IMG/VR virus record: IMGVR_UViG_3300046459_000067 | Span: 1-35,076 of that record | Length of the DNA stretch: 35,076 nt | Direction: 5' to 3' (one strand) | From: a virus | Shown here: positions 3,344-34,379 of the stretch, one piece after another | Layout: each line of letters begins with the position of its first letter | Numbering within the stretch: position 1 is the first letter of the stretch | Made by a program: the position numbers and the translations under genes | The notes under the pieces: model-generated | What the model was told of the DNA's origin: nothing | The model's database searches: none | Seen by the model: only the letters and a program-made list of their open reading frames with translations

Positions 3344-3389
3344 CCAACCCCTTGATTTTTCGTGAGATTCGTTAGAGAGCCTCTGGGTG

Positions 3390-3412: not shown

Positions 3413-3457
3413 GGACCCTTCGGGTGTCCTTCGGACGCAGACCAGCAATGAAGAACG

Positions 3458-4056: not shown

Positions 4057-4256
4057 CCCTCCCATACCAGCCGGGAGGGTCCCCCAAGACCATGGTGCAA
4101 CGCCATGGCCTCGTCTACCCGCAATAGGTAGGCTCGAGCGTGCCCTTTCGATTGTTCGGCCATCCACCGTAACCGGATACTCTCTCTCGCTCCCGAGAGG
4201 GCACCCTCAAGCCAATTTTCCAGCAACGTGAAAATGGTCTTTTCCCAAAGGGCCAA
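4053..4256 (-). CDS. Possible small protein (67 aa, TTG start)
   Basis: The leftward frame starts at TTG as MALWEKTIFTLLENWLEG and ends GGPSRLVWEG. It looks more protein-like than neighbouring frames, with an amphipathic helix-rich middle. It has no visible Shine-Dalgarno sequence or ATG near the start. Its stop overlaps the end of the convergent 43-residue gene by 4 nt. A GAAA-loop hairpin (GGGCTAC-GAAA-GTAG with a bulge) lies just upstream at about 4270-4290. It may be spurious. Confidence 0.25.
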   Translation of the reverse strand: MALWEKTIFTLLENWLEGALSGARESIRLRWMAEQSKGHARAYLLRVDEAMALHHGLGGPSRLVWEG

Positions 4257-4811
4257 AGAATTTTTACGGGGGCCTACTTTCGTAGCCCTAAATTTCTGGA
4301 TTTTCCCCTACGGCCTCACGCTCTGCCCTCAGGGGCACCGTGGGGTTATCCTTCCAGTTCTCAGCCCGCCTCGGGCACACCCCCTCAGATCACCGGAATT
4401 CACCCCTCGTCGTGCGTCACCGAGCCTCACGGCAGACGTCAGGCCCCCTACGAAGCACGGATAGGGTTTGCAAGGCCTCCAATGGCCCGCCATGCCTCCG
4501 CTAGGGGTCGGTTGGTAGGGTAGTAGCCAAACCATCGGCAGGCCCTCAAAAGGGCTGTAAGAACTCCTGTGAAGCTTAATCGCCATTCGCTTCCTCGCTT
4601 GTCTACAGGCCTGTAGAGCGGCCCGCAGTGTGCCAAGCTATGTCGGCACCTCCAGACCCTCACGAACCCGTTAAACGGCCCTGTAGATACCCTGCATCAC
4701 GTATGCACGGACGAACGCCTACAGCCCTGAGGGTTCCCAGGGTCTAAGGAGTACGGACGAGTGCCTACAGGCCCGCATGGAGCCTTTCTTTCTAAACCGT
4801 CGACAAATAGC
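4257..4811. other. Gene-poor control-like region with CTACAGGCC repeats
   Basis: About 550 bp with no supported gene. From 4552 to 4774 a CTACAGGCC-type word recurs in both orientations: 4552-4561 (inverted, degenerate), 4603-4611, 4608-4616 (inverted; these two form the 14-bp palindrome CTACAGGCCTGTAG), 4677-4686 (inverted), 4718-4726 and 4765-4773. The last two belong to a longer imperfect direct repeat starting ACGGACGA at 4707 and 4753. It could be an origin, packaging or regulatory region. Confidence 0.4.
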
Positions 4812-4834
4812 AAAAGCCCCGCGTATTGCAGGGC
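4812..4834 (-). terminator. Terminator of the 4840-7131 leftward cassette
   Basis: Leftward: stem GCCCTGC, loop AATAC, stem GCGGGGC (one G-T pair), then TTTTG. It begins 6 bp past the stop of the last cassette gene. On the plus strand there is no T run, so it should not stop the rightward late transcript. Confidence 0.7.
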
Positions 4835-4839
4835 CTCAG

Positions 4840-5037
4840 CTATTGACCGTCATGGCCGCGAATGATCCGGATTTTTCCAGGTAGTTCTATGGTGACTGTG
4901 CCTCCCATGGTTGACGATAGCTCCAATGCTAACGCCTGGGTCAGCGCGTGGACTAACTCAGGCGTGGGCTTGATTGCCCTGGCGTATGCCTCCAGGGCTT
5001 GCGATACGGGTTTAACGCTGGGGCGCATTGTTGGCAC
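4840..5037 (-). CDS. Hypothetical protein (65 aa), last gene of leftward cassette
   Basis: Starts at GTG (MPTMRPSVKPVSQALEAYA), one base after the TGA of the upstream gene, the typical look of translational coupling. An ATG three codons later is the alternative. The product is a helix-rich N-terminal part followed by a short beta-like tail (TVTIELPGKIRIIRG). I recognise no family. A terminator follows directly. Confidence 0.6.
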   Translation of the reverse strand: MPTMRPSVKPVSQALEAYARAIKPTPELVHALTQALALELSSTMGGTVTIELPGKIRIIRGHDGQ

Positions 5038-5038
5038 T

Positions 5039-5281
5039 TCAGTAGTGGATTACCTGTCCGTCGAGCTTGTCACACGCAGCGCCGAAGTTTGATGCGCTGC
5101 CGCTAAGTTTATCGACCACAAGCATTACCTTGTCTTCTGACACACTGCGACGCAAATCAACAATGGTCGCGCAAATGCCCCCTTCGTCATAGAGCTTGTA
5201 CGAATTCCCGTGGTAGGGCGTTACTTTAAACCCGGCCTTACGGATGAATTTCTCAGCGGCTGTATTTGCGGGGTTTTTCAT
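5039..5281 (-). CDS. Hypothetical protein (80 aa)
   Basis: Starts MKNPANTAAEKFIRKAGF, with AAGG 8-10 nt before the ATG. The ATG overlaps the stop of the 39-residue gene upstream (ATGA), and the next gene starts one base after its stop. The pattern FIRKAGFKVTPYHGNSYKLYDEGG resembles small alpha-beta proteins, but I cannot name a family. Probably cytoplasmic. Confidence 0.7.
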   Translation of the reverse strand: MKNPANTAAEKFIRKAGFKVTPYHGNSYKLYDEGGICATIVDLRRSVSEDKVMLVVDKLSGSASNFGAACDKLDGQVIHY

Positions 5282-5397
5282 GCGGACACCTTAGCGGGTT
5301 GATACGTGGCGAACGTACCGTTAGAGTAACTCGCGCCATTGAGACCGGACGTTACCCGCAACACCTGCAGGGCGTGGATGATTTGGTCTAGGGTCAT
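5278..5397 (-). CDS. Small coupled protein (39 aa)
   Basis: The frame MTLDQIIHALQVLRVTSG to TYQPAKVSA fills exactly the space between two larger genes. It begins with an ATGA overlap at the stop of the 70-residue gene and ends with an ATGA overlap at the start of the 80-residue gene. The perfect fit at both ends is the main evidence; the start looks like an amphipathic helix. Function unknown. Confidence 0.65.
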   Translation of the reverse strand: MTLDQIIHALQVLRVTSGLNGASYSNGTFATYQPAKVSA

Positions 5398-5606
5398 ACA
5401 GCCCCAACAATTTCGTTTGCAGGGTTATCCAAGTACCGCACTGCCGCCTCTTCGCTTGCGAAAAACAGGAGCTTACGGGTCTCCTCATCCTGCGCGAGAG
5501 CCCCTGAGCTAAACCACCGGATGGAGTAGCTATCGTTGTATGGGGTAACTGAAAACTTCCTACGGCCCCTGGTTACTACTATGTATCCGTTACGGTCTCT
5601 TTGCAT
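5394..5606 (-). CDS. Hypothetical protein (70 aa)
   Basis: Starts MQRDRNGYIVVTRGRRKF, 5 nt after the stop of the 33-residue gene, and its stop overlaps the next ATG. A longer start at 5645 is possible but has no ribosome site and would overlap the upstream gene out of frame. The product looks like a small beta-rich domain with a terminal helix (FASEEAAVRYLDNPA). No family recognised. Confidence 0.65.
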   Translation of the reverse strand: MQRDRNGYIVVTRGRRKFSVTPYNDSYSIRWFSSGALAQDEETRKLLFFASEEAAVRYLDNPANEIVGAV

Positions 5607-5611
5607 GATGG

Positions 5612-5713
5612 TCAGAGATAAAGAGTAAGCAACAGCCCCGCGCATCCCGCAAGGCAGAGAAAGACAGCCGCACCTAAAAGGAGCGCGGCAGGGTCGATTC
5701 GGTTAGCGATCAT
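5612..5713 (-). CDS. Single-pass membrane microprotein (33 aa)
   Basis: A leftward frame starting MIANRIDPAALLLG and ending LLLTLYL. Its ATG overlaps the stop of the 254-residue gene as ATGA, and it ends 5 nt before the next ATG. Residues 9-33 are a single hydrophobic stretch with two cysteines (FLCLAGCAG), long enough to cross the membrane. It explains what would otherwise be a gap in a tightly packed operon. Role unknown. Confidence 0.65.
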   Translation of the reverse strand: MIANRIDPAALLLGAAVFLCLAGCAGLLLTLYL

Positions 5714-18472: not shown

Positions 18473-18845
18473 AGGCCGCGCTCAGTTAGCTGAGTGGCGT
18501 TCCCGGAGAAAGACTACCCCCAAACGGCCCTTCGGGGCCAAGGCGGGGTGGACCAAACACATGCGCCAGAAGGTTATGGCACACGCCATGGCTGAAGCCA
18601 AGCAACTAGTGAACATCATGGAACAGAAAGGCTACAACATCCCCAAGGACGAGTACGCCCGTGAAGGTATCGAAGCAGTGGTAGCCATGGTGCGTCTGAC
18701 GGACATCAGTCCCAAGGACCGCCTTGCTGCGGCCCGCACGCTCCTCGACTTCACGATGGCGAAACCCGCCACCGACACCAACCTGAACGTTAAGAAGGCC
18801 GAGGATTTCCTCGCTGACCTGGCGAAAGATATGGACACCGAATGA
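18390..18845 (+). CDS. Probable terminase small subunit (151 aa)
   Basis: Lies directly before the large terminase and overlaps it by 4 nt (ATGA), the usual place for the DNA-recognition subunit. The frame has no ATG before residue 58, so I place the start at GTG 18390 (MSQAPKPDARKGRKNPG). The basic N-terminal region (RSRRKTTPKRPFGAKAG) would contact DNA. A helical middle (VMAHAMAEAKQLVNIMEQKG) and a C-terminal helix (AEDFLADLAKDMD) suit oligomerisation and TerL binding. Function is inferred mainly from position. Confidence 0.65.
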   Translation: MSQAPKPDARKGRKNPGSHFAKLSQTPEGRAQLAEWRSRRKTTPKRPFGAKAGWTKHMRQKVMAHAMAEAKQLVNIMEQKGYNIPKDEYAREGIEAVVAMVRLTDISPKDRLAAARTLLDFTMAKPATDTNLNVKKAEDFLADLAKDMDTE

Positions 18846-20407
18846 GTATTGACGCCGTGCGAAAGCGGCTATTCGAGGACTTCGAGTACTACGCCAAGCA
18901 CGCGCTCAAGATTCGAACGAAGGAGGGGACGGTCGTTCCCCTTGTCCTCAACGACGCCCAAAAGATTTTCATGAAGACTGTCATCCGACAGCTTCAGACA
19001 ACCGGCAAGGTCCGCGTGGTGGTCCTCAAGGGACGCCAGCAGGGCCTGTCGACCATCATCGAGGGGATCATCTACTGGTGGACGAGCCAACACAAGGCCG
19101 TCAAGTCCATCGTTATGACCCACCTCGGGGAATCCACGAAGGCCCTGTTCGACATGGCCAAGCGGTATCACGAGAACGTCCCCGAGATCCTCCGTCCCCA
19201 TACGAAATACTCGTCCCGCCGCGAACTCTCCTTCGACCTGCTCGATAGCTCCTACATGGTGGCTACGGCAGGCGGTGAGGGTGTCGGTCGAGGCGAAACC
19301 ATTCAGTTGGCCCACCTGTCCGAGGCAGCGTTCTACCCGCCCGCCACGGCCAAGGACAACATCAACGGCCTCATGCAGGCCATCCCGAGTTCCCCTGGCA
19401 CCTTCGTGTTCGTCGAGAGCACGGCCAACGGCATCGGAAACCCCTTCCACAACATCTGGACCTCGGCGGTCGAAGGAAAGTCCGACTTCGAGGCTGTCTT
19501 CATCCCCTGGTTCGTCCAGAAGGAGTACCGGTCCCCGGTGTCCAAGGGTTTCTCCAGGACCCCCAAGGAAGACGAGCTAGTCAAGCTCTACGGTCTCGAC
19601 GACGAGCAGCTTATGTTCCGTCGACACAAGATCGCGATCAACGGCGACGAGATGTTCATGCAGGAGTATCCCTGCCACGCCGACGAAGCCTTCCTGACCT
19701 CAGGTCGCCCGGTATTCCACACGCAACAGATCCACGGACTCATGCAGATCGCTCCGGACATCAAGGTCCGCATGGAGTTGATCGGCGAGTCCCTCGAGGA
19801 AGCCCCTCGCGGCGACCTCCTTCTCTACCGCCTCCACGATCCCGGCGAGACGTACTACATCGGTGCGGACGTGGCTATGGGCTACAAGGGCGGGGACTGG
19901 TCTGTAGCACAGATCCTCGACTCGCAGAAACGACAGGTCGGCGTCTACCGATCCCAGGTACACCCCGACTACTTCGCAACAGTGTTGGACAAGATCGGCC
20001 AGTTCTTCAACACGGCCAAGATCGGCGTGGAAAACAACAACCACGGCATTCTCACAGCAACCCGCCTAGGCAAAGACCTCTCCTATCCTAATTTGTACTT
20101 TGAGACGCACGTCGACAAAGAGACAGAGGATGAGACGGTCGTCTATGGCTTCCGCACCACCGTCAAGACCAAGCCTCTCATCATCGACAAGCTCCGCGCT
20201 TCGTTCCGTGAGAAGGACATCGAGGTCAACGACAAGGTGACCCTCAGGGAACTCATCACTTACGTGGTGACCGACGAGGGGAAGATGCAAGCGGAACCCG
20301 GGTGCTTTGACGACTGCGTAATGTCCCTCGCAATCGCGAATTTCATCCACGAAGGTCGCTTTACTCCTGTTGAGAGTACAGATGACTTCTACATCGAAAT
20401 GATTTAA
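18842..20407 (+). CDS. Terminase large subunit (521 aa)
   Basis: The DNA-packaging motor. ATPase: Walker A-like KGRQQGLST at 63-71, Walker B followed by catalytic Glu161 in IQLAHLSEAAFY, coupling motif ESTANG at 192-197. Nuclease: Asp343 in YYIGADVAMGY, Glu397 in IGVENNNHG, Asp490/491 in CFDDCVMSLA, an RNase H-fold metal site. Length is normal for the family. The ATG overlaps the small subunit stop and its own stop shares a base with the portal start. Confidence 0.95.
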   Translation: MSIDAVRKRLFEDFEYYAKHALKIRTKEGTVVPLVLNDAQKIFMKTVIRQLQTTGKVRVVVLKGRQQGLSTIIEGIIYWWTSQHKAVKSIVMTHLGESTKALFDMAKRYHENVPEILRPHTKYSSRRELSFDLLDSSYMVATAGGEGVGRGETIQLAHLSEAAFYPPATAKDNINGLMQAIPSSPGTFVFVESTANGIGNPFHNIWTSAVEGKSDFEAVFIPWFVQKEYRSPVSKGFSRTPKEDELVKLYGLDDEQLMFRRHKIAINGDEMFMQEYPCHADEAFLTSGRPVFHTQQIHGLMQIAPDIKVRMELIGESLEEAPRGDLLLYRLHDPGETYYIGADVAMGYKGGDWSVAQILDSQKRQVGVYRSQVHPDYFATVLDKIGQFFNTAKIGVENNNHGILTATRLGKDLSYPNLYFETHVDKETEDETVVYGFRTTVKTKPLIIDKLRASFREKDIEVNDKVTLRELITYVVTDEGKMQAEPGCFDDCVMSLAIANFIHEGRFTPVESTDDFYIEMI

Positions 20408-22461
20408 TGGATAAGGCTTCCAAGAAGTTCAAGCCTGTGTCGGAATCGGAACTCAAGGCTCTCGTCGAGAAGTACTCCACCTCCAGTGTCGAGTACTACT
20501 CATCGAAGCTGTCCGACGAGCGCAAGAAGGTCATGGAGTACTACCATGGCGAAAAGCCCGCTCCTTCCCACGCAGGTAATTCGAAGTACGTCTCAATGGA
20601 CGTGTTCGATGCTGTGGAATCTCTCAAAGCTGTCTTGCTCGAGACCTTCAGCGCAGGCAACAAAATCGTATCGTTCGATCCGCAGACCGACAATGACGTC
20701 GAACCCATGCGGATCGCAACGGAGTACGCGGACTACGTGATCCACCGTCAGAACGACAGTTACGGCACGTTCGCCTCGGTGATCCAAGACGGCCTCATGG
20801 CCCGCACGGGCATCGTAAAGGTGTTCTGGGACAAGCGTGAGGAAGAGCAGGAAGAGGAGTTCAGTGATGTAGACGTCGACTCCCTCGAGATGCTCCAGTC
20901 CCAGGAAGACGTTAAGGAAGTGAAGGCCGAGCACGACCCGGAGACGGGCCTGTTCAGCGGCACCATCACGCGCCTGATCGACAAGTCCCAGGTCCGCTAC
21001 GTCCCCATAGCACCCGAGGAATTCCTCATCACCTCGACGGCCCCCAGCATCGAGGAGGCCCACTTCGTGGCCCACCGGACCCGCAAGACGAAGTCCGAGT
21101 TGATCGCCATGGGCTACGACAAGGATCTGGTCTACAGCGTCGGAACGAACGATGACGACGAGTTGTCCATGTCCCCCGAGCGGCTCGCCCGCTTCGAAGA
21201 CATAGGCACCGGAGTGACCAACCTCGAGGAGGACCAGGACCAGGAGCAGACGGAACACGTGCTCATCACCGAAGCCTACATGCCAATCGACATGGATGGC
21301 ACCGGTGAGGCGAAGCTGTGGAAGGTCACGATGGCCGGTACGGACGTCCTTCTCGACAAGGAGCAAGTCGACCGCAAGCCGTTCATCTGCTTCACGCCGC
21401 TCCCGCTCCCCCATGCATTCTATGGTGGCAACTATGCGGCCCGCGTCATCCCGACGCAGAACGCCCGCACGGTGCTCGTCCGAGGCATCCTGGATCACAC
21501 GGTCATCACCAACAACCCGCGCCTCATGGTGGTCAAGGGTGCCGTGCAGAACCCCAAGGAACTCCTCGAGAACCGAGTCGGTGGCCTGGTCAACGTGTCG
21601 CGCCCAGATGGCATCCTCCCGATGCCGCAGTCGGGCCTGAATCCCTTCGTATTCCAAACGATCCAGATGTTGGACGAGGACAAGGAAGAGGTGACAGGTG
21701 TGTCGCGGTTGTCCCAAGGGTTGAACAAGGACGCCATCTCGAAGCAGAACTCGCAGGCATCCCTGAACGACATGGTCAGCCTGTCGCAGCAGCGCGAGAA
21801 GATCATCGCCCGCAACTTCGCGAACCACTTCGTCAAGGAGTTGTACCTCGAGGTGTACCGCCTGGTGCTCATGAACGAGAAGCAGACGAAGGTGGTCCGC
21901 ATCGCTGGCAACTTCGTGCGGGTCGATCCGACGGAATGGTCGGAAGAGGTGACATGTACCGTCGAACTGAAGCTCGGATACAACGAGCAACAGCAAGAGG
22001 CGATGAAGTTCCTAACGATCCACTCGACGCTTGCCGCTGACCCTGGTAACGCACGCCTCTACACCGAAGCCAACCGATACGCCGTGTTCAAGACTGCCCT
22101 CGAGAAGACGGGCATCAAACAAGTCAACCAGTTCCTCACCGATCCGAAGACCCTGCCGCCCCCGCAGCCTGACCCGTTCAAGGTCCAGGAGATGCAGTTG
22201 GAGCAGCGCAAGGTCCAAGTCCAGGAGTCTGTTGCTCAAACCTCCGCGAAGAAGACCGACCAACACGCTCAAATCGAGATGCTCAAGCTCCAACTGGAGA
22301 AGATGCAGATGCAGATGGAGCAGGTCATCAAGGGTCGCGAGGTGGATGTGAAGCAGTTCGTGGCCGAGTCCACGGCAGCGCTGCACACGCAAGAGCTTCA
22401 CCTGGCCGAGAAGGAGATGGAGAAGAACCCGCCGCAAACCCAAGCGGTTCTCAGGACCTAA
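20407..22461 (+). CDS. Portal protein (684 aa)
   Basis: Large podovirus-type portal directly after the terminase. Seen: an N-terminal helix pair, VRYVPIAPEEFLITSTAPSI near residue 197 and EAHFVAHRTRKTKSELI, typical of SU10/P22-like portals. A long C-terminal coiled-coil barrel rich in Gln/Lys/Glu spans about 590-670 (KVQEMQLEQRKVQVQESV). It would form the dodecameric ring for DNA entry and exit and dock TerL. Starts at TAATG with the previous stop. Confidence 0.9.
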   Translation: MDKASKKFKPVSESELKALVEKYSTSSVEYYSSKLSDERKKVMEYYHGEKPAPSHAGNSKYVSMDVFDAVESLKAVLLETFSAGNKIVSFDPQTDNDVEPMRIATEYADYVIHRQNDSYGTFASVIQDGLMARTGIVKVFWDKREEEQEEEFSDVDVDSLEMLQSQEDVKEVKAEHDPETGLFSGTITRLIDKSQVRYVPIAPEEFLITSTAPSIEEAHFVAHRTRKTKSELIAMGYDKDLVYSVGTNDDDELSMSPERLARFEDIGTGVTNLEEDQDQEQTEHVLITEAYMPIDMDGTGEAKLWKVTMAGTDVLLDKEQVDRKPFICFTPLPLPHAFYGGNYAARVIPTQNARTVLVRGILDHTVITNNPRLMVVKGAVQNPKELLENRVGGLVNVSRPDGILPMPQSGLNPFVFQTIQMLDEDKEEVTGVSRLSQGLNKDAISKQNSQASLNDMVSLSQQREKIIARNFANHFVKELYLEVYRLVLMNEKQTKVVRIAGNFVRVDPTEWSEEVTCTVELKLGYNEQQQEAMKFLTIHSTLAADPGNARLYTEANRYAVFKTALEKTGIKQVNQFLTDPKTLPPPQPDPFKVQEMQLEQRKVQVQESVAQTSAKKTDQHAQIEMLKLQLEKMQMQMEQVIKGREVDVKQFVAESTAALHTQELHLAEKEMEKNPPQTQAVLRT

Positions 22462-22701
22462 ATGGACCAAACCCTAATGCTCCAACGCGGCACTGCTGCC
22501 GAGGAGCTTCTAGCAAACGAGGCGTTCATCACTTCGGTGAACGAACTCTACAACCAATATTTCGCCGAGATCACTGCAAGCGATCTGAACGCCAAGGAGT
22601 TGCGGGAGAACCGCTTCTTCCAGCTTCGGGCGCTGCAGGACATCACGAACGAACTTCGGAGTTGGGTCACGCAAAAAGACTCGCTCCTTTCCCCCCACTG
22701 A
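22462..22701 (+). CDS. Hypothetical protein between portal and scaffold (79 aa)
   Basis: Starts immediately after the portal stop (MDQTLMLQRGTAAEELLANE). All-helical and charged, with no membrane segment. Small genes at this spot in related phages are usually virion assembly factors, but I recognise no family. Confidence 0.7.
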   Translation: MDQTLMLQRGTAAEELLANEAFITSVNELYNQYFAEITASDLNAKELRENRFFQLRALQDITNELRSWVTQKDSLLSPH

Positions 22702-22713
22702 AGAGTAAACCAC

Positions 22714-23748
22714 ATGACGACCACCACCCAATCGGGCGTGGCTGATGCTGCGCCGTCATTCGAAGCACTAGACGAAGCTGACGCAGCAAATGAATTTCTG
22801 AACCGATGGAGTGAAGAGGACCCGGCAACGGCATCCGAAGACCCTGAGGACGAAGACCCGCGCGACGAGGATGATGAACCAGTCGAGCGGGAGGAAGCCG
22901 ATTCCGAACCGGAAGCGGACGCAGAAGAGACCGAGGACCCTCAAGAAGAGACCGAGGAGTCGGAAGGTGATCAAGAAGGCGAAAGCGAAGAGGAAGCCCC
23001 GAAGAAGGGCAAGACCCTCGACGACGAAGCCAAGGTCAAGATCACCGTCGACGACGAGGAACTCGAGGTATCCGTCAAGGACCTGAAGCGCCTGTACGGC
23101 CAAGAGAAGGCACTGACGCAAAAGTCGCAAGCCGTAGCGGAGCAGCGCAAGGCAGTCGAGGCAGCAAACCAGAAGGCAGCAGCACAGCTTGATCGCCTCC
23201 ACCAGAAGGCCCTGGCCCGATGGGAGCCTTACGCGAAGATCGACATGCTGGTCGCAAGCAAGCAACTGGACGCTGATTCTTTCGCAGCCCTTCGCGCCGA
23301 GGCCCAGGCAGCCTACGAGGAAGTGCGTTTCATCACCCAGGAAGTTGACCAGTTCGTTGCAACTGCGAACGATCAACGCCAGAAGCAAGTCAAGGAAGCG
23401 GCCGCGAAGGCCGTTGAGACGCTCTCCAAGAGCATCCCCAACTGGAGTCCGAAGGTCTACGACGAGATCCGTTCGTACGCGATCTCCAAGGGAATGCCTG
23501 AAAACGTCGTCAACTCGGTAGTGGAAGCTGCCGGTCTCGAGATGATGTACAAGGCAATGAAGTTTGACCAGGCCAAGTCGGTCGTGACCAAGAAGGTCAA
23601 CAAGACTCCCGCCAAGGTCCTCAAGCCCAACAAGGTTGTCTCCTCGTCGGCCAACAAGGTCGACACCACCACGAAGCTCAAGCAGCGCCTGGCGAAGTCG
23701 GGATCCACCGATGACGCTGCGGACTTGTTCATGGCTCGCTGGTCTTAA
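22714..23748 (+). CDS. Capsid assembly scaffolding protein (344 aa)
   Basis: Residues 1-100 are extremely acidic (long Glu/Asp runs). The middle is a coiled coil of Gln/Lys/Ala (QKSQAVAEQRKAVEAANQKA), and the C-terminus is basic (VVTKKVNKTPAKVLKPNK). This profile and the position just before the capsid gene are those of podovirus scaffolds, which guide procapsid assembly and then leave. The basic tail would bind the capsid protein. Confidence 0.82.
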   Translation: MTTTTQSGVADAAPSFEALDEADAANEFLNRWSEEDPATASEDPEDEDPRDEDDEPVEREEADSEPEADAEETEDPQEETEESEGDQEGESEEEAPKKGKTLDDEAKVKITVDDEELEVSVKDLKRLYGQEKALTQKSQAVAEQRKAVEAANQKAAAQLDRLHQKALARWEPYAKIDMLVASKQLDADSFAALRAEAQAAYEEVRFITQEVDQFVATANDQRQKQVKEAAAKAVETLSKSIPNWSPKVYDEIRSYAISKGMPENVVNSVVEAAGLEMMYKAMKFDQAKSVVTKKVNKTPAKVLKPNKVVSSSANKVDTTTKLKQRLAKSGSTDDAADLFMARWS

Positions 23749-23823
23749 CCCAACACTCTCAAGTACCCCAAGGGCAGCACACACATCCTCGCGGCCCTCA
23801 CTCCATCTTTAGGAATACACACA

Positions 23824-24768
23824 ATGAGCAGCACTGCATTCAAGACGTACGATCAGGTCGGTATCAAGGAAGACATCTCGGACGTGATCTCGAACATCAG
23901 CCCGACGAATACCCCCTTCCAGACGTTGGTGAAGACCGAATCGGTCCACAACACGTTGTTCCAGTGGCAAGAAGACAGCCTCGCGGCAGTCGGTTCGAAC
24001 GCTGCAGTTGAAGGTGCAGATGCTTCGGATAGCGCAATGAACGCTACCACGATGCTGTCGAACTACACGCAAATCTTGACGAAAACCATCCGCGTGTCGA
24101 ACACTGCTGACAAGATCAGCACCTACGGTCGCGCCAAGGAAACGGCACTGCAACTCTCGAAGAAGTCAGCAGAACTGAAGCGTGAACTCGAGTACGCACT
24201 CATCGGTACGGCGCAGAACGCTGCGGTCGGTAACGAGACCACGGCACGTAAGTTCGGCAACGTGTTCGGCACGGGTGCCACGGGTGCAGCGCTGATCGAC
24301 GCGGGCAACGTGATCGACCACACGGCAACCCCGGTTGCTCTGTCGGAAAACGACATCCTGACCGCGAACCAGAAGCTGTATGAAGGCGGCGGCGAAGCGA
24401 AGATCATGATGATCAAGCCTGGTGACTCGCTCACCGTGGCGGGCTTCACGGCTGCTGCTGGCCGTACGCGCTTCTTCGATGGCTCGGCAGACAAGACGGT
24501 CGTCAACGTGGTCGATCTGTACGTCTCGCCGTTCGGTGAGCAGAAGGTCGTGCTGAACCGCTTCATGAAGGCCGACTCGGCACTCCTGTTCGCTCCGGAG
24601 TACTGGAAGATCGCTGTGCTGCGTCCGTGGACCCGTATCCCGCTCGCAGTGACCGGCGATGCGAACCGCACGCAGTTGATTGGCGAGTTCTCGCTGAAGC
24701 ACCTGAACCAGAAGGCGTCGGCTGCAATCCGTGGCCTGACGGGTTCGAACGTCACCATCGGCCAGTAA
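23824..24768 (+). CDS. Major capsid protein, SU10 type (314 aa)
   Basis: Starts MSSTAFKTYDQVGIKEDISD and continues VISNISPTNTPFQTLVKT, the recognisable opening of the SU10 major capsid family (DUF5309, PF17236), an HK97-fold group. Also seen: GRAKETALQLSKKSAELKRELEYALIG near 100-130, a spine-helix-like segment, and SPFGEQKVVLNRFM in the second half. AGGA precedes the ATG after a 75-bp gap, room for a strong leader. It would form the icosahedral shell. Confidence 0.9.
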   Translation: MSSTAFKTYDQVGIKEDISDVISNISPTNTPFQTLVKTESVHNTLFQWQEDSLAAVGSNAAVEGADASDSAMNATTMLSNYTQILTKTIRVSNTADKISTYGRAKETALQLSKKSAELKRELEYALIGTAQNAAVGNETTARKFGNVFGTGATGAALIDAGNVIDHTATPVALSENDILTANQKLYEGGGEAKIMMIKPGDSLTVAGFTAAAGRTRFFDGSADKTVVNVVDLYVSPFGEQKVVLNRFMKADSALLFAPEYWKIAVLRPWTRIPLAVTGDANRTQLIGEFSLKHLNQKASAAIRGLTGSNVTIGQ

Positions 24769-29711: not shown

Positions 29712-29740
29712 ATTATAGCCAGGATAGCGCCCGCAGTGAA
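29712..29740 (-). promoter_or_regulatory. Orphan sigma-70-like promoter
   Basis: Leftward: -35 TTCACT (29735-29740), 17-bp spacer, perfect -10 TATAAT (29712-29717). No gene lies downstream in this direction before the terminator at 29591-29620. The stronger bidirectional terminator just upstream isolates it. Confidence 0.6.
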
Positions 29741-29790
29741 AAAATACCCCCTCGGGAACCCATTACGGGAACCTTGAGGGGGTCTTTTTC
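29738..29790. terminator. Strong bidirectional terminator between late and plasmid-type regions
   Basis: ACCCCCTC (29746-29753) pairs with GAGGGGGT (29776-29783), followed by CTTTTTC on the plus strand and by ATTTTTTC on the minus strand. It stops the rightward late transcript and the leftward transcript of the lipoprotein/Rep side. Confidence 0.85.
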
Positions 29791-29794
29791 GACT

Positions 29795-30022
29795 TCAATT
29801 GTTGACGAGTGTGGCTCCGCAGGTGGTCGCGCAGAGCTTCAGGGACGAGTTGCACTGGAGCTTCTGGATCCCTGGGGTCAGAGGATTGGACGACAGGCAT
29901 TCGTTGTAGGCGTCCGAGCAGTGCATGGAGCACGAGCGGTCGGCGTAGCGCCAGTCGAAGTCAGGGGTCGCACAGGCCGAAAGGGACAGGGCTGTGGATA
30001 AGGTAGCGATGAGCATCTTCAT
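29795..30022 (-). CDS. Small lipoprotein, Cys-rich (75 aa)
   Basis: Starts MKMLIATLSTALSLSACATP: a signal peptide with lipobox LSAC, so Cys17 would be lipidated. The mature part has six more cysteines in a spaced pattern (CSMHCSDAYNEC, LQC, LCATTC), likely disulfide-bonded outside the inner membrane. No clear ribosome site. A DnaA box lies inside the signal-peptide codons and another just before the ATG. Possible roles are superinfection exclusion or entry exclusion (inference). Confidence 0.7.
   Translation of the reverse strand: MKMLIATLSTALSLSACATPDFDWRYADRSCSMHCSDAYNECLSSNPLTPGIQKLQCNSSLKLCATTCGATLVNN
29993..30001 (-). promoter_or_regulatory. DnaA box 1 (perfect)
   Basis: TTATCCACA on the minus strand, an exact match to the consensus TTATNCACA. 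It lies inside the lipoprotein gene. Confidence 0.75.
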
Positions 30023-30031
30023 TGTGGATAA
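30023..30031 (-). promoter_or_regulatory. DnaA box 2 (perfect)
   Basis: A second exact TTATCCACA, 30 bp from the first and in the same orientation, hence on the same helix face. It directly borders an AT-rich stretch. Confidence 0.75.
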
Positions 30032-30069
30032 CTTTTCTCTATTGTTAAGGTAAACATCTTTCTCGTTAG
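30032..30069. other. AT-rich stretch, possible DNA-unwinding element
   Basis: About 38 bp of AT-rich, T-rich DNA (ACTTTTCTCTATTGTTAAGG at the start) in an otherwise GC-rich genome, flanked by DnaA boxes on one side and iterons on the other. This is where an iteron-type origin would melt. Confidence 0.55.
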
Positions 30070-30173
30070 GGTGTCTTGGGTGACACCTATTCCCGGTGAA
30101 TTGGTGCCTTGGAAGACACCTATTAATTAGTGACAGGTCGCACCCCTGATACGTGTCACCGATGACACCTATT
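30070..30173. repeat. Three 22-bp iterons (plus one degenerate copy) at a predicted plasmid origin
   Basis: Copies start at 30070, 30103 and 30152. Each ends in GACACCTATT and begins with GGTGTC, GGTGCC or CGTGTC, six bases before the GACACC arm, so each is also an imperfect palindrome. A weaker fourth copy (about half the bases) fits at 30129. The last copy overlaps the stop codon of the Rep-like gene. They are likely Rep binding sites. Confidence 0.75.
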
Positions 30174-30741
30174 TCAACTTGTCCCGCAGCTTCTCCCGAA
30201 TCGCCGGGTCCAGTTTGTCCATATTCTCCAGCAGGCTCTGCATGTTGAACTGCGCGGAGTGGTCGTTGAACACGTTCACTGTCAGGTTCTCGATGCTGAT
30301 TATCTTGGCCCCCGCGAAGTCCCCGGTCATCATCACGTGCTTCAGTTCTGCCACAGCATTCTTCACACCATCCGGAACGTAGTCCCACGTAGCGGCAGCT
30401 ACGGGCCTCCCCTGGTCATCCGAGATCCCCACGCGCTCCCGCAGTGTGTAGACGTTGTTCCGCCCTTTCTTCTCTCTGGTGATGTACCCCATGTCCTCCA
30501 GGGTCTTCAGTTCCCTGAGCACCTGGCTCTTGGACAGCCCTGTCTTCGTCATGAGGACGTCGATTCCCGGCCACGCCTTGCCTGTCTTGAAGTTGGTATG
30601 AGACTTAATGGAGCAGTAAGTGAGGAAGGCGTTTCCGCCCATCTTCGCGGCGTCCCCGTTCTCGAGCATCGCCCGGAACAGGTGGAACCACACAGTCTCA
30701 GCCGCGAACATGTCCGCCTGCTGCGGTTCCGGCGCGTTCAT
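30169..30741 (-). CDS. Winged-helix Rep-like plasmid replication/regulatory protein (190 aa)
   Basis: Residues 15-110 form a winged helix: ETVWFHLFRAMLENGDAAKM, then TGKAWPGIDVLMTKTGLSKSQVLRELKTLEDMGYITREKKGRNNVYTL. The C-terminal part (TWDYVPDGVKNAVAELKHVMMTGD) is one I recall from helix-turn-helix proteins on proteobacterial plasmids. Its 3' end abuts iterons, an AT-rich tract and DnaA boxes, so replication initiation is the best guess; a transcriptional regulator of the par operon is the alternative. The ATG overlaps the stop of the RHH gene (ATGA). Confidence 0.7.
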   Translation of the reverse strand: MNAPEPQQADMFAAETVWFHLFRAMLENGDAAKMGGNAFLTYCSIKSHTNFKTGKAWPGIDVLMTKTGLSKSQVLRELKTLEDMGYITREKKGRNNVYTLRERVGISDDQGRPVAAATWDYVPDGVKNAVAELKHVMMTGDFAGAKIISIENLTVNVFNDHSAQFNMQSLLENMDKLDPAIREKLRDKLK

Positions 30742-31085
30742 AGGAAGCCCTCCTCCTCTGCCTTGGCGATCTCCGCGTCCAGGGCTGCCTCTAGGACATC
30801 AGCCACGAACCCCTTGCCGCTCTTGATGCGCCCGAGGCTCTTCAGTGTGTTTAGCTTCGTCCGGATCCGCATGGGGACCTCGAAGTTTACCTTGATCACC
30901 TCGTCCTGCCCCTCCCACGTGCGGCGGCGGATAGCTTCCTTCCTTGCTTCCCTCGAAGTTTCCTTCGTTCCTTCAAAGGAAGGTTCCTTGGTTCCTTGGT
31001 TACTTCCTTCTTTCCTTGGTTCTAGGGCCGCTGGCGCGGCTCCTCCTTTCTGCACCACGGCCCCCAAGGAGATCGACTTAGACAT
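30738..31085 (-). CDS. RHH partition-type DNA-binding protein, ParG-like (115 aa)
   Basis: Residues 1-55 are disordered, charged and repetitive (SNQGTKEPSFEGTKETS). Residues 62-110 look like a ribbon-helix-helix: a short strand (IKVNFEVP) then two helices (MRIRTKLNTLKSLGR, SGKGFVADVLEAALDAEI). A flexible basic tail plus RHH, encoded right after a small ParA and overlapping it by 8 nt, is the arrangement of type Ib partition systems, where this protein binds the centromere and stimulates ParA. The DNA of its disordered tail contains centromere-like repeats. Confidence 0.7.
   Translation of the reverse strand: MSKSISLGAVVQKGGAAPAALEPRKEGSNQGTKEPSFEGTKETSREARKEAIRRRTWEGQDEVIKVNFEVPMRIRTKLNTLKSLGRIKSGKGFVADVLEAALDAEIAKAEEEGFL
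30967..31019. repeat. TTCCTTGG array inside the ParG-like gene
   Basis: Copies of TTCCTTGG at 30984, 30992 and 31012 and a TTCCTT-CA-AAGGAA inverted repeat at 30968-30981. The 13-mer CTTGGTTCCTTGG (30987-30999) is also present exactly upstream of parA (31783-31795). Candidate partition site or operator located in coding sequence. Confidence 0.5.
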
Positions 31086-31722
31086 GTGCCTTCTCCCGCT
31101 TGGGTGGGGCGATGAACTGGCTCACGACGAAGTCCGCCACTTGGTCAATAACGATGGCCCCGGTGCCCTTGTTGTGCTCCTTAAAGACGCCGCCTGGGAT
31201 CATGGCCATCCAGTAGCCATTGAGCTTCGGTACGTTGTGGGGGATCACAGGACCCATAGCGGCTAGATTGCGGGTTGCGTCGAGCGCTACGGCCTTCCCG
31301 TTCGTCTCGTTGAGCAGGAAGAAGAAAGGCTTTCCGAGGCCCTTACACATAGCGACCGTAGTCTTCGCCGCGCGTATGTCATGCGGAGAGTGCTTCACAG
31401 GGATGATGACCATGTCGGCCAGTTTTATGGCCTCCTCGTTGATCGCGTGGTCCTGCGGAGGGGTGTCGACTACACACCACGCGTACCCGGCGCTTGCAAG
31501 CTCTGCGTGTTTCCTGGGGAGGTGTGCCACGTCTTCGACCAATGCAAACGCAGGGGTCTCCTTGGTCCTGTCGTTCCACCATGCCGAGAGGGACCCTTGG
31601 GGGTCTAGGTCCATAGTCACTACGGGGCCGTGCCCCAGGTCCTCTAGAGCACACGCGAAGTGCGCCGAGTGCGTGGTCTTTCCGCTGCCGCCCTTCAGGC
31701 ACGAATACACGATGGTCCTCAT
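31078..31722 (-). CDS. parA: ParA-type partition ATPase (214 aa)
   Basis: Deviant Walker A KGGSGKTT at 10-17 with signature Lys10, Walker A' DLDPQGSLSAW at 38-48, Walker B VVDTPP at 84-89. No N-terminal DNA-binding domain, so it belongs with small (type Ib) ParA proteins. These ATPases ride the nucleoid to distribute low-copy plasmids. GGAG precedes the ATG at 31722; the upstream in-frame extension covers a repeat array and is not used. It forms an operon with the RHH and Rep-like genes. Confidence 0.88.
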   Translation of the reverse strand: MRTIVYSCLKGGSGKTTHSAHFACALEDLGHGPVVTMDLDPQGSLSAWWNDRTKETPAFALVEDVAHLPRKHAELASAGYAWCVVDTPPQDHAINEEAIKLADMVIIPVKHSPHDIRAAKTTVAMCKGLGKPFFFLLNETNGKAVALDATRNLAAMGPVIPHNVPKLNGYWMAMIPGGVFKEHNKGTGAIVIDQVADFVVSQFIAPPKREKAHV

Positions 31723-31729
31723 TCTGGCT

Positions 31730-31795
31730 CCAAGGTAGGAAGGAACGAATGAAAGAATAAAGGAAACTTCCAAGGAAGGAAACTTGGTTCCTTGG
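31730..31795. repeat. Partition-site-like repeats upstream of parA
   Basis: Direct repeat AGGAAACTT (31761-31769 and 31778-31786), CCAAGGAA (31770-31777), CTTGGTTCCTTGG (31783-31795) and CCAAGG (31730-31735). They lie between the parA start and the upstream terminator, where type Ib systems keep their centromere/operator. Confidence 0.55.
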
Positions 31796-31801
31796 TAGAC
31801 C

Positions 31802-31822
31802 AAAGCCCCGACAGAGCGGGGC
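31802..31822 (-). terminator. Terminator/attenuator after the RHH-like gene
   Basis: Leftward: GCCCCG, 6-nt loop, CGGGGC, TTTGG. The T run is short, so it may only partly block transcription toward parA. Confidence 0.5.
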
Positions 31823-31827
31823 ACTGA

Positions 31828-32184
31828 TCACTTCGCCTTGGTGAACCTATCGATCACCGCATCGGCCATCTCGTTTGCCGCACGGTCCAGAAACACCTGC
31901 ATCGACTTCATCCCACCCACGTTCTCAACGATCCACTTGACCTTGAGGTACAACTCCGGTTCCATCTTGAAGTTGTACCCCATGCGCGGCTGCGCTTGGA
32001 TTATGTCTGGGTTTTCCCAAGGGAAGCGGGCCGACTTGGTCGCCTCCTCGCGGGCTAACTCCTGCAATCGGGCGATCTCCGCTTGTGCCGCCCTCAACTG
32101 CTCCTCAACACTCATCGCCGCTTTGTCTGCTGCCTTTGAAGCTACCTTAGCAGGAGCTACACTCTTGCCCGATACTGCGTTCAT
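31828..32184 (-). CDS. Coiled-coil plus RHH-like DNA-binding protein (118 aa)
   Basis: Starts MNAVSGKSVAPAKVASKAAD with GAGG upstream. Residues 26-48 form a short coiled coil (VEEQLRAAQAEIARLQELAR). Residues 65-115 (MGYNFKMEPELYLKVKWIVENVGGMKSMQVFLDRAANEM) look like a strand-helix-helix module of the RHH type. It has its own promoter at 32219-32247 and precedes the parA region. It may be a second partition or copy-control regulator, or an autorepressor. Confidence 0.62.
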   Translation of the reverse strand: MNAVSGKSVAPAKVASKAADKAAMSVEEQLRAAQAEIARLQELAREEATKSARFPWENPDIIQAQPRMGYNFKMEPELYLKVKWIVENVGGMKSMQVFLDRAANEMADAVIDRFTKAK

Positions 32185-32446
32185 TTGGCTGGTCCTCGTT
32201 TGTGTTTTCAGTGCTTGTACTGTACAGGTTCGTGCAGTCCCTAGCAACCTTTACCACTTCTGTTAGTGTGGTACATCTAACACAGAGGCCAAACTCTTCC
32301 CAAGCGTGGTCCCAGGTGCTATAGGAGCACTCGAGATTCCCGTCGATCAGCAGGTGGTGCTGGTGCGACTCGGGGTCTTCCTCGGTGCCTTCGGAGACCA
32401 AGGACACCGTAGTATTATCAGACAAATAGGCAGAGATCAGTTGCAT
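32147..32446 (-). CDS. Hypothetical protein (99 aa)
   Basis: Starts MQLISAYLSDNTTVSLVSEG about 55 bp after a promoter at 32506-32534; longer in-frame starts (32503, 32560) lie at or before the promoter. Acidic, with several His and Cys (HQHHLLIDGNLEC, LCVRCTT). The last 38 nt overlap the next gene, and that gene's promoter lies within this one. No family recognised. Confidence 0.5.
   Translation of the reverse strand: MQLISAYLSDNTTVSLVSEGTEEDPESHQHHLLIDGNLECSYSTWDHAWEEFGLCVRCTTLTEVVKVARDCTNLYSTSTENTNEDQPNERSIGQECSSC
32219..32247 (-). promoter_or_regulatory. Sigma-70-like promoter for the RHH-like gene
   Basis: Leftward: -35 TTGCTA (32242-32247), 17-bp spacer, -10 TACAGT (32219-32224). A TGTAC-TGTACA repeat overlaps the -10 and may be an operator. 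Confidence 0.6.
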
Positions 32447-32505
32447 GTTCTTTGAGGGGTCAAGATTCGTTACAACTTGTTGCAAACGCTTTCGCGGCGG
32501 CATTA

Positions 32506-32534
32506 AATGTAGCATTTGAAGGAAAGGTTTACAA
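32506..32534 (-). promoter_or_regulatory. Sigma-70-like promoter for the 99-residue gene
   Basis: Leftward: -35 TTGTAA (32529-32534), 17-bp spacer, -10 TACATT (32506-32511). Confidence 0.55.
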
Positions 32535-32586
32535 GTAGGATGAATGTGACAAAAACCCAACAGTAAACTTTCCCTAAGTTAGAGGA

Positions 32587-33396
32587 TTACCGCACAGCCG
32601 CCAGCAGGTCCTCGTCCGAGATGTGGGCGTAGCGCATCGTCGTCTGTATCTTACGGTGTCCGAGGAGCTTCTGGACTACCGCGATGTTCCCAGTCCTCGA
32701 CAGCGTCCGGGTTGCGGCGGTATGTCGCAGGGCGTGAAGGACGAAGTCGTCGTCCCCCTCGAGGCCCATAGCCACCTTCAGGCGCAGCCATACAGCCCGC
32801 AGTTTCCCCTCGTCCAGGGCGAAGGGCAGCCCCTGGGCAATCGCATCCTGAGCACGGACGCTGAGGGGCACCGAGCGGGGCTTCTTCGTCTTGTTGACCC
32901 ACAGCCGAACCCACGGTCCATCCACGTTCTTCGCCTCGAGCTTCAGGATCTCCGAGCGGCGCATTCCGGTGTCGATGGAGACCGTAAGGAACCTAGCGAC
33001 CTCGGCCTCTCCCCAGGTGTCCAAGAGGGCGAACATCTGAATTTCTTCGACTTCTGTCAACCAGCGGGTGCGTCCCTCCGTTTCTTCCTTCCATTCGAAC
33101 TTCGGCATCTTGGCGAGCCACTCGCGCTCGAAGCCGTACTTGAGGACCGTGTGGATGTTGGCCAGCTTGCGGTTGACCGTGGCGTCCGCGATGGTCCCTT
33201 GGACCTCCAGGATGAAGTCGTCGATGGTCGTCGTCCGGACGTCCTCGAGGGCCAGGTTGCCGACCACCTTGATGAACTGCTCGACGTTGCGGTAAGCGGT
33301 GAGTTCGTAGGCCTTGCCGCGCCACAGGGCCTTGGCGGCGATCCGAAGGAGTTCGTGGAGGTTCTTGGGAGCTTGTACCGGCTTGGTGGTCTTCAT
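32587..33396 (-). CDS. Tyrosine recombinase / integrase (269 aa)
   Basis: Full catalytic set of PF00589: Arg146 in DTGMRRSEIL, Lys near 171 in NKTKKPRSVPL, HALRH with His221 and Arg224, His247 in LLGHRKIQTTMRYAHI and nucleophile Tyr256. N-terminal residues 10-100 form the SAM-like core-binding domain. AAAGGAG precedes the ATG at 33396. It has a good promoter at 33519-33547. On a plasmid-type element it may resolve multimers (as Cre does for P1) or integrate the genome; no attachment site could be identified by eye. Confidence 0.92.
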   Translation of the reverse strand: MKTTKPVQAPKNLHELLRIAAKALWRGKAYELTAYRNVEQFIKVVGNLALEDVRTTTIDDFILEVQGTIADATVNRKLANIHTVLKYGFEREWLAKMPKFEWKEETEGRTRWLTEVEEIQMFALLDTWGEAEVARFLTVSIDTGMRRSEILKLEAKNVDGPWVRLWVNKTKKPRSVPLSVRAQDAIAQGLPFALDEGKLRAVWLRLKVAMGLEGDDDFVLHALRHTAATRTLSRTGNIAVVQKLLGHRKIQTTMRYAHISDEDLLAAVR

Positions 33397-33518
33397 TCTT
33401 GTTCTCCTTTGGTCTGAAGGTATCTTCTCAGGTTCTTGAGACGACTTCTGTCTCGATCCGCACTGCTGTGTTCGCTTCCGTACACACATTTGTTCAGTGC
33501 GCAATTGCCGTAGATGTG

Positions 33519-33547
33519 ACTGTACCAACTTGTACGACACGATGCAA
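33519..33547 (-). promoter_or_regulatory. Sigma-70-like promoter of the recombinase gene
   Basis: Leftward: -35 TTGCAT (33542-33547), 17-bp spacer, -10 TACAGT (33519-33524). It gives a leader of about 115 nt containing the palindrome GCAATTGC. It sits just past the terminator of the next operon. Confidence 0.62.
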
Positions 33548-33557
33548 CTGTCTGATG

Positions 33558-33586
33558 AAAAAAAATCCCCCGACCGAAGTCAGGGG
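33558..33586 (-). terminator. Strong terminator of the right-end leftward operon
   Basis: Leftward: CCCCTGAC, loop TTCG, GTCGGGGG (one G-T pair), followed by ATTTTTTTT. The 8-bp stem with a UUCG loop and eight T residues makes this the best intrinsic terminator in the window. Confidence 0.9.
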
Positions 33587-33607
33587 AAAACTTACCGCGA
33601 GAGGGGA

Positions 33608-33664
33608 TCAGTTGAACAGGATCCAGAGGACGAGGAAGAGGAGGAGGGTTTCGCCGAAGGTCAT
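33608..33664 (-). CDS. Hydrophobic microprotein (18 aa)
   Basis: Frame MTFGETLLLFLVLWILFN, whose ATG overlaps the stop of the larger gene upstream (ATGA), as all other genes of this operon do. It is essentially one membrane helix. The stop is about 20 bp before the operon terminator, so it fills the remaining space. Very short, so translation is a prediction. Confidence 0.45.
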   Translation of the reverse strand: MTFGETLLLFLVLWILFN

Positions 33665-34173
33665 TCGTACACCACCGCGTCGATGCCATAGTCACAGCCA
33701 TCGTAGATGTAGCCACCACAGCCCCCTACGACCACCGAGGGTCCCCACCAGGCGAACGGGTCGTAGTAATAGACGCTACCACCGAGCAGGAGGATTGCGA
33801 GGATGACCACGGCGATGAAGATCAGCACGTCAGCGCCCGAAGACTGGGCCATTCCACTCGAGGTCACGTAGACCGGAGCGGGGGCCACGTAGGGAACCAT
33901 GGGAGCAGCGACGATCACCGGGGGCCTCGCGACGATCACAGGGCGCGGGGTGTAGATCGGGACCACGGGACGCGCAATGATCACAGGGCGCGGAGCGATG
34001 TAGACAGGGCGTGGGGCCACGTAGACGCGGGCCATCGGGGCCGAGCGGAAGCCACCACCGTAGTAGGCTGCGTTGGCGCTGGTCGTCGAGAACAGGCCGA
34101 TGAAGGTGATGATCGCGAGGAAGCCCAGGAAGAGGGCTGCGTACGGCTTGTGGAACTTGGGTGCAGGGATCAT
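33661..34173 (-). CDS. Membrane protein with Pro/Val repeats (170 aa)
   Basis: Starts MIPAPKFHKPYAALFLGF with AAGGA before the ATG. Residues 10-35 are a signal or membrane helix ending SANAAYY. Residues 48-100 are a repeat of APRPVYI/ARPVVP/TPRPVIV units. Residues 118-138 are a second strong membrane helix (DVLIFIAVVILAILLLGG), followed by an aromatic/Gly tail (YYYDPFAWWGP). The repeat could span the periplasm. No family recognised; superinfection exclusion or envelope binding are possible. Confidence 0.65.
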   Translation of the reverse strand: MIPAPKFHKPYAALFLGFLAIITFIGLFSTTSANAAYYGGGFRSAPMARVYVAPRPVYIAPRPVIIARPVVPIYTPRPVIVARPPVIVAAPMVPYVAPAPVYVTSSGMAQSSGADVLIFIAVVILAILLLGGSVYYYDPFAWWGPSVVVGGCGGYIYDGCDYGIDAVVYE

Positions 34174-34379
34174 GCGAAAGTCCTTGTATTCAGCTTGGTC
34201 ACCCAGAAGCCGTCGGCGTTCTTCGCCATACCCTGGGCATTCATTTGCATCGGTGTGAGGCAGCGGCGGGGGTTCTCTTCGTTCCCGAAGTCCCCACGGC
34301 GATGCTTCTCGAAGGCCACGGTCGAGTTGAAGAACTCGGCGCAGCGCGGGCACTGGTTGCGGTCGCCGGTGAGCTTCAT
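34170..34379 (-). CDS. Zinc-finger-like conserved phage protein (69 aa)
   Basis: Starts MKLTGDRNQCPRCAEFFNST. A CPRC pair, the H in FEKHRRGDF and C in RRCLTP form a likely Cys2-His-Cys zinc site. The end, MAKNADGFWVTKLN, completes a pattern I recall from many phages, where it is unnamed. ATGA overlaps join it to both neighbours. Likely nucleic-acid- or protein-binding. Confidence 0.75.
   Translation of the reverse strand: MKLTGDRNQCPRCAEFFNSTVAFEKHRRGDFGNEENPRRCLTPMQMNAQGMAKNADGFWVTKLNTRTFA

Follow-up and report, generated by a model that had tools for sequence, protein, structure and literature searches.

Cluster A mycobacteriophages are siphoviruses of Actinobacteria and are not known to carry a T7-type RNA polymerase. 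Their parABS cassettes (sometimes accompanied by RepA) are colinear with the integrase cassette of relatives, their parB alleles have diversified, which has been attributed to incompatibility, and extrachromosomal prophages have been shown experimentally (PMC7157519). P1-like phage-plasmids have given rise to integrative prophages, and exchange of partition and replication genes possibly lets them escape incompatibility (PMC10879196). A 2024 review tabulates eight phage-plasmid groups, every one of them composed of sipho- or myophages, and states that no phage-plasmid has been observed to form by acquiring phage or plasmid genes (PMC11652158). Here we analysed a 35,076-bp IMG/VR virus record classed as linear (IMGVR_UViG_3300046459_000067, taken whole and referred to as the window), in which the virion, packaging and lysis genes of a podovirus with a T7-type RNA polymerase stand on the same element as replication and partition genes, the gene content by which phage-plasmids are recognised. 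The window's group resembles cluster A in the exchange of integrase and par cassettes at one locus and in the diversification of alleles. It differs from cluster A in being podoviral, in its T7-type polymerase, ParF-like partition and iteron/DnaA-box origin, and in being known from sequence alone; it differs from the integrated elements derived from P1, which keep P1-like replication and partition genes, in its clean swap with an integrase.

The element is very probably a temperate podovirus, maintained during lysogeny as a low-copy plasmid. This lifestyle had been proposed in a preliminary description of the window and is still the best reading now that relatives have been compared. What is new is the combination and the slot in which it occurs, that is, a group of podoviruses with a T7-type polymerase in which several replicon specificities and integrases interchange.

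The par/rep cassette occupies an exchangeable slot of ~1.8 kb (29969–31794, borders approximate, from comparison with the related record G006). Within it, parA (31081–31722, minus strand, the true start probably being the ATG at 31722) encodes a ParF-like partition ATPase of 214 aa that matched PHROG 164 ('ParA-like partition protein') and Pfam AAA_31; its best solved relative was ParF (4dzz, E = 3.4e-10) and its best plasmid ParA matches were 40–44% identical. Partition type Ib is the ParF/ParG class, and the short ParA without an N-terminal helix-turn-helix (HTH), with ParF as its best match, agrees with that class. The gene between parA and rep (30738–31085, minus strand) encodes a 115-aa partner, by its position the presumed centromere-binding protein, that shared 38% identity over 34 aa (a short match) with the par partner of plasmid pA29BJ2 and matched nothing in Pfam, PHROG, NCBIfam or PDB; from its sequence and this short match we infer it to be a ribbon-helix-helix (RHH) protein. 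The rep gene (30169–30741, minus strand) encodes a putative winged-helix replication initiator of 190 aa (HTH_36, E = 1e-11; PHROG 270, annotated as 'replication initiation protein', E = 1.7e-13; the top PHROG match, 28562 at E = 4.8e-28, is a family without known function), for which a sequence search of PDB gave nothing significant and the structural model showed a winged helix (mean pLDDT 66).

Three iterons of the form GGTGTC-n6-GACACCTATT (30070–30091, 30103–30124 and 30152–30173, plus strand; 77–100% identical to the reference) were found, and the repeat excess of this stretch was 9 cf. 0.64 in shuffles, with none of 500 shuffles as high. Two perfect DnaA boxes, TTATCCACA, lie 30 bp apart (29993–30001 and 30023–30031, minus strand). 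Boxes with one mismatch were at chance level in the window (4 cf. 3.86 expected); it is the perfect pair that exceeds chance, as 0.12 perfect boxes are expected in the whole of G004, a 44-kb record that contains the window. All parts of an iteron origin (Rep gene, iterons and DnaA boxes) are thereby present. Candidate centromere repeats of the CCAAGG/GGAAAC kind stand upstream of parA (31735–31800), and a second candidate cluster lies at 30935–31025. The slot is bordered on the left by a small lipoprotein-like gene (29795–30022, minus strand) and on the right by the gene of RHH2 (31828–32184, minus strand), a DNA-binding-like protein of 118 aa and candidate repressor. The ParA, Rep-like winged helix, iterons and DnaA boxes named in the preliminary description were thus confirmed by Pfam and PHROG matches, by shuffling and by recurrence of the boxes in relatives; of its RHH partner the gene is in place, while the family assignment found no match.

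The slot was delimited by its flanks, which were 97% (29732–29968) and 95% (31794–33595) identical in DNA between the window and G006, with no blastn match of at least 200 bp between them. It could be read in 19 records (the window, G001–G004, G006–G008, G011–G014, G017, G018 and G426–G430; contigs without the slot, e.g. G005, G009, G010, G015, G016 and G431, are outside the count). Fourteen of these held parA, partner and rep, five (G013, G017, G426, G427 and G428, the last but one with an integrase cut by the contig end) held a tyrosine integrase, and none held both, such that integrase and par cassettes exclude each other at one locus as they do in cluster A. Co-occurrence of the polymerase and the par/rep block in relatives, the check suggested beforehand, was borne out, as 8 of the 14 par/rep records held both (cf. 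3/5 integrase records with the polymerase; the remaining contigs do not reach it). Among G019–G027 (portal 48–53% identical, mostly fragments), ParA or Rep was matched in 0/9 and the polymerase was found in 7/9. The right border (RHH2, then a recombinase) was common to par/rep and integrase members. The left lipoprotein gene was 84–100% identical in par/rep members, 78% in G013 and 31% in G426, with no match in the integrase members G017 and G428.

Since the window is a metagenome contig, it could be a chimeric assembly of phage and plasmid. The same junctions recurred across dataset numbers, in G001–G004 with the window's allele and in nine records with other alleles; with one arrangement in 14 records, the element is not chimeric, or has only a negligible chance of being so, and this refutation foreseen in the preliminary description fails. 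Two further observations concern cassettes of this kind. G007 carries a second, window-type partner gene (1170–1430) between rep and the resident partner, which appears to be a trace of recombination inside the cassette. Three virus contigs of 30–34 kb (L176, L177 and L178) encode a related ParA (~40%) and Rep (~31%), apparently a replicon of this kind carried by a different group of phages; the T7-type polymerase was not matched in two records of that kind that were searched, G432 and G433.

Several signs indicate that the cassette is a working replicon. Relative to G006, G007, G008 and G018, the window's portal was 99% identical, whereas Rep was only 31–36% and ParA only 22–30% identical. 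G006 and G008 were alike in ParA (one change in 217 residues) with Rep at 64%, and G006 and G018 were alike in Rep (99%) with ParA at 59%; rep and par alleles appear to reassort. Each Rep type was accompanied by its own repeats, namely GGTGTC..GACACC for the window's, GTGTTCA for that of G006, G018 and G008, and TAGCGTTAC for that of G007, G012 and G014, and the repeat excess of all seven origin stretches was above every one of 500 shuffles. Perfect DnaA boxes numbered exactly two per whole record in 14/14 par/rep records, both between rep and the left border, cf. none in any of the five integrase records (Fisher test without G017, P = 3e-4 by record, the records being non-independent samples, and P = 0.008 for 7 vs. 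3 distinct cassettes). Upstream of parA, TGTAAAGA...TCTTTACATCTTTACA was found in 6/6 cassettes of the second par type, including that of G018, whose partner is 78–91% like that of G006 despite the divergence of ParA; the window's par type has other repeats in that place. ParA dN/dS was 0.03–0.32 in 14 same-type pairs (a 15th had a dS of 0), partner dN/dS was 0.13–0.52 in 15 pairs (with dS near saturation in some) and Rep dN/dS was 0.06 in one same-type pair. Purifying selection is thus demonstrated for the sister cassettes and not for the window's own allele, the copies of which are too alike for this measure (98.7–100% in DNA); the genes are open and constrained where this can be assessed, which disposes of the suggestion that they might be decayed.

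The window's Rep had only two plasmid matches, Polaromonas pA29BJ2 (34%) and Acinetobacter baumannii pRBH2-3 (38%), and in both the Rep relative stands after parA and a small gene. Six phage records also matched, the best being an Acinetobacter phage at 38%. One DnaA box was present in the examined stretch of pRBH2-3, a number reached in 25/200 shuffles, and among plasmids the G006-type Rep gave just two matches, both weak and both in Bacillus. Given that the phage has a T7-like replication module of its own, par/rep could instead act in lytic growth or in a short carrier state, as an extra origin or in positioning DNA, and not in stable lysogeny. We regard this as improbable, as the cassette alternates with an integrase that has no evident lytic role and the diversification of alleles fits incompatibility.

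The integrase form of the slot was observed in an integrated phage. G013, a contig of Caballeronia temeraria LMG 29319 (NZ_FCOI02000046.1), holds in its slot an integrase of 426–448 aa, depending on the start codon. Its att core, TGGTGCCCAGGAGAG, occurs at attL 2338 and at attR 47030, the 3' end of tRNA-Leu (CAG), and in 7/7 related genomes fetched the C. temeraria flank runs straight into an intact tRNA-Leu, which constitutes the empty site. A circular plasmid cut within the cassette was considered for G013 and rejected, as both contig ends are host DNA (an MFS transporter gene and tRNA-Leu), which makes G013 an integrated prophage. In G426 and G017 the same core stands uninterrupted between integrase and RHH2 and is flanked on both sides by phage genes, and the flanks in G426 resemble both arms of G013, such that these two represent the unintegrated form; G427 and G428 carry a two-mismatch variant of the core. 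A pattern-based search of 84,980 species genomes, in which misses are possible, found a single close portal, that of C. temeraria, and two others with 41–42% identity, and tblastn gave no slot gene in the stretch examined of those two. Within the genus of C. temeraria, the portal was matched in 2/58 genomes, one of them closely, and within its family the polymerase was matched in 10/398, again one closely.

The order of the two states was examined in two trees, neither of which includes G017. In the polymerase tree, the integrase members G426 and G428 are basal in the group and the outgroup includes the integrase phage BB8 of Bordetella, but G013, which also has an integrase, falls within the par/rep members, so that the slot must have changed at least twice unless the polymerase gene has recombined. 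In the tree of the slot's neighbour, a weakly supported branch (51/53) can set the par/rep members apart from the rest. That the integrase state came first is only suggested by these trees.

Beyond RHH2 lies the gene of a XerC-like tyrosine recombinase of 269 aa (32587–33396, minus strand; Pfam Phage_integrase, E = 5.7e-21; NCBIfam XerC, E = 3e-22, below its cut-off), which was present in 18/19 readable records, the contig of G007 ending before its position. The phage might also integrate, using this enzyme and a dif-like site for insertion, with par/rep serving only part of the time: the recombinase is nearly always there, its R..HxxR..H..Y residues were conserved in four aligned members, and XerC/XerD profiles were among its best NCBIfam matches, albeit below cut-off. 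We consider this unlikely. The recombinase sits beside a separate slot integrase in 5/5 integrase members and hence does not substitute for one, multimer resolution would account for it equally well, and the portal searches of species genomes and of the genus of C. temeraria found no integrated par/rep member. The tyrosine recombinase noted previously is therefore real and probably not the integrase of lysogeny.

The polymerase itself (728–3232, minus strand) is a single-subunit enzyme of 834 aa (Pfam RNA_pol, E = 5.8e-96; PHROG 414, E = 8.4e-197) whose best-listed relatives among GenBank phages, at ~33% identity, include T7 and, as top match in the list (33%), Bordetella phage BB8. The phage-polymerase promoter TTAGGACGCACTATAGAAAGG, absent from shuffles, was found before the gene of a gp2.5-like protein (660–680, minus strand) and at two rightward positions (3392–3412 and 3460–3480, plus strand); a variant, TTAGGCCGCACTATAG, matches upstream of the polymerase gene (3326–3341, minus strand). 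No such promoter was found inside the window's par/rep slot, so that par/rep is presumably transcribed by the host polymerase. Diverged polymerases (G002, G014 and G013) go with different promoter repeats at matching places. Around the polymerase gene, such record-specific promoters lie in G002 (21560–24475), G014 (35320–38285), G013 (18507–18668) and G004 (2833–5651). The polymerases of relatives with their co-diverging promoters are candidates for ready-made orthogonal pairs.

At 3302–3309, past the phage promoter and ahead of the polymerase start, is a palindrome, TTGTACAA, and over-representation pointed to further TTGTACAA/TTGTACAG places at 605, 620, 719, 3733, 6632, 7124 and 7610 and to an CTGTACAG palindrome at 32220. 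TTGTACAR had 13 strand-matches (8 places) in the window cf. 0.83 in shuffles, and GTTGTACAA was the most over-represented 9-mer in G004, G013, G014 and G002 (7–10 copies cf. 0.11–0.14). The sites are mostly outside mapped genes, before the polymerase gene and in the early region. In all four of these records a palindrome stands between phage promoter and polymerase start and a pair 15 bp apart follows the polymerase gene; in the same four and in G426 a palindrome stands just upstream of RHH2. The distant member G428 showed neither the excess nor these places, which weighs against an immunity system common to the whole group. The palindromes are candidate immunity operators, and RHH2 is a candidate for the protein that binds them, because it sits beside the slot, occurs in both kinds of member (61–100% identical across par/rep and integrase members) and has a site before its own gene. 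The RHH label of this protein is putative: it shared 40% identity with the par partner of pA29BJ2 over 35 aa, its monomer model had nothing better than E = 7.8 in a Foldseek search of PDB, a profile search of PDB gave nothing significant, and tblastn of plasmids gave none.

From these data we sketch, tentatively and with less than even confidence, a lysogeny slot that toggles, through exchange of cassettes, between integration and a plasmid, in which the integrase is probably ancestral, the phage-plasmid arose when an integrating phage gained a plasmid replicon, and RHH2 bound to TTGTACAA would silence the polymerase in both states. On that sketch, an operator just past the phage promoter from which the polymerase gene is read would be the natural counterpart of the laboratory T7lac promoter.

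The remaining gene content is that of a phage. A rightward virion and lysis operon (7610–29551, plus strand) includes the terminase large subunit, portal, scaffold and major capsid protein (18842–24768, plus strand). The gp2.5 gene (~1–430, minus strand) is cut at the window's left edge and complete in G001 (PHROG 112), and outside the window's region G001 also encodes a T7-like set of endonuclease, primase/helicase, DNA polymerase and exonuclease beside the gp2.5-like protein. Profile matches thus uphold the early observation that a single-subunit polymerase, a gp2.5-like protein and virion and lysis genes share one element. The T7-likeness claimed for it stands for the polymerase and fails for the portal, which is of the SU10/Vicosavirus kind (Pfam SU10_portal, E = 2.2e-176; PHROG 1216; GenBank phage matches including Vicosavirus NV1), and the replication and virion genes are transcribed in opposite directions. 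Autographiviridae are defined by a T7-type head-tail connector and virion genes with a single direction of transcription; the window has the T7-type polymerase and promoters but neither the T7-type connector and virion genes nor the single direction. When 21,077 bases of the window (of 35,076) were searched against phages and plasmids for near-identical DNA, nothing matched. At 33661–34353 the window encodes a Pro/Val-rich repeat protein with a weak PXPV match below cut-off.

In view of the full replicon and of the plasmid-borne relatives of its Rep, the element could also be a plasmid with captured phage genes that is no longer a phage. This is very improbable: the genes for terminase, portal and major capsid protein are open and show 83–100% identity among the members compared (internal virion and tail-fibre proteins being more variable, down to 45–53%), and the phage promoters have been kept, co-diverging with the polymerase.

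The whole window is contained at 99.5% DNA identity in G004 (IMGVR_UViG_3300046531_000068, 44,069 bp), the last and first 500 bp of which match G001 at 100%, 768 bp apart there (15,699 and 16,468), and the two records combine into a circular map of 44,837 bp, within which the T7-like replication module lies. Closure of G002 was considered and rejected, as its two ends cover the same genes at only 75–87% DNA identity.

A number of points weigh against a plasmid prophage. An exact end repeat was found in 0/15 records tested, so that the check for assemblies closing as circles failed and no single assembly closes in that way, and the circular map alone is not proof of a plasmid, since a linear phage genome with permuted ends or terminal repeats would also yield one. 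The 14 par/rep records include near-copies and amount to 7 distinct cassettes. Between the window's type and the others, dN/dS was 0.56–0.83, at saturated distances that make it little informative. The Rep role rests on the winged helix and its context with a weak model, for which Foldseek gave weak winged-helix matches only, none at E ≤ 0.001. No repressor of a known family was found among the proteins searched, and neither portal nor near-DNA search found a par/rep member in a cellular genome or plasmid record. The plasmid state is deduced from sequence and the comparison of relatives.

Other known elements share parts of this organisation. Vibrio panuliri pVPan1 (NZ_AP019656.1), a complete circular plasmid of 47.9 kb, resembles the window in its T7-type polymerase (30%, and thus distant), terminase, portal, capsid, DNA polymerase, tyrosine recombinase (30%) and partition gene; it differs in its ParM-type partition, a portal unmatched by the window's, no annotated Rep and no perfect DnaA box. 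Sphingobium pCFD-1-5 (NZ_CP084403.1), a circular 43.7-kb plasmid, likewise has a T7-type polymerase, terminase and portal, but the polymerase is very distant and no partition or Rep gene is annotated (the gene table being incomplete). Both plasmids look like phage-plasmids. At least one complete public plasmid, pVPan1, already brings a partition gene together with phage genes and a T7-type polymerase, which corrects the view that a plasmid prophage under such a polymerase would be unusual. On the plasmid side, circular Polaromonas pA29BJ2 (NZ_MN657148.1) shares with the window the order parA-partner-rep, iteron-like repeats after rep (CCCTTA..TAAGGG) and, after rep, two perfect DnaA boxes (reached in 0/200 shuffles), and shares with the second par type GTAAAG/CTTTAC repeats before parA; unlike the window, it is a 104-kb plasmid, and the annotation of the 10 kb examined lists no phage structural genes.

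The premise of the preliminary description that T7-like phages are strictly lytic is dated, as Rhizobium phage vTRX32-1 and its prophage relatives are temperate T7-like phages (PMC8631192) and the LUZ100 paper cites integrating T7-like phages, although LUZ100 lysogens were not obtained (PMC10134795). These phages resemble the window in combining a T7-type polymerase with lysogeny or integrase genes; they differ in that they integrate, and the available sections of the two papers describe no plasmid replicon. Bordetella phage BB8, which carries an integrase, differs from the window in its T7-like connector and tail genes. A search of open-licence PMC articles by title and start of abstract gave no phage-plasmid with a T7-type polymerase among the matches listed, which is weak evidence of absence, and in the main text of a 2026 survey of phage-plasmid-like elements (PMC13221032) 'podovir-', 'RNA polymerase' and 'integrase' do not occur.

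If the window is the genome of a plasmid prophage, the following course would be expected. The genome would circularise after infection. In the lysogen, Rep would bind the iterons and, together with host DnaA at the two adjacent boxes, open a nearby AT-rich stretch, to which the host replisome would be recruited, and ParA and its partner would distribute the copies via the repeats upstream of parA. In lytic growth, the phage polymerase and the gp2.5, primase-helicase and DNA-polymerase module would take over. Because like replicons exclude each other, rep and par alleles would diversify and reassort, while in the sister phages with an integrase in the same slot lysogeny would be chromosomal.

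The group offers candidate compact replicons as well as candidate orthogonal pairs of T7-type polymerase and promoter. A T7-type polymerase needs tight silencing in any lysogen, and here it is carried by what is presumed to be a plasmid prophage. Since close relatives differ mainly in their plasmid alleles or integrase, the cost, stability and exclusion of plasmid and integrated lysogeny may be tested against each other in this group.

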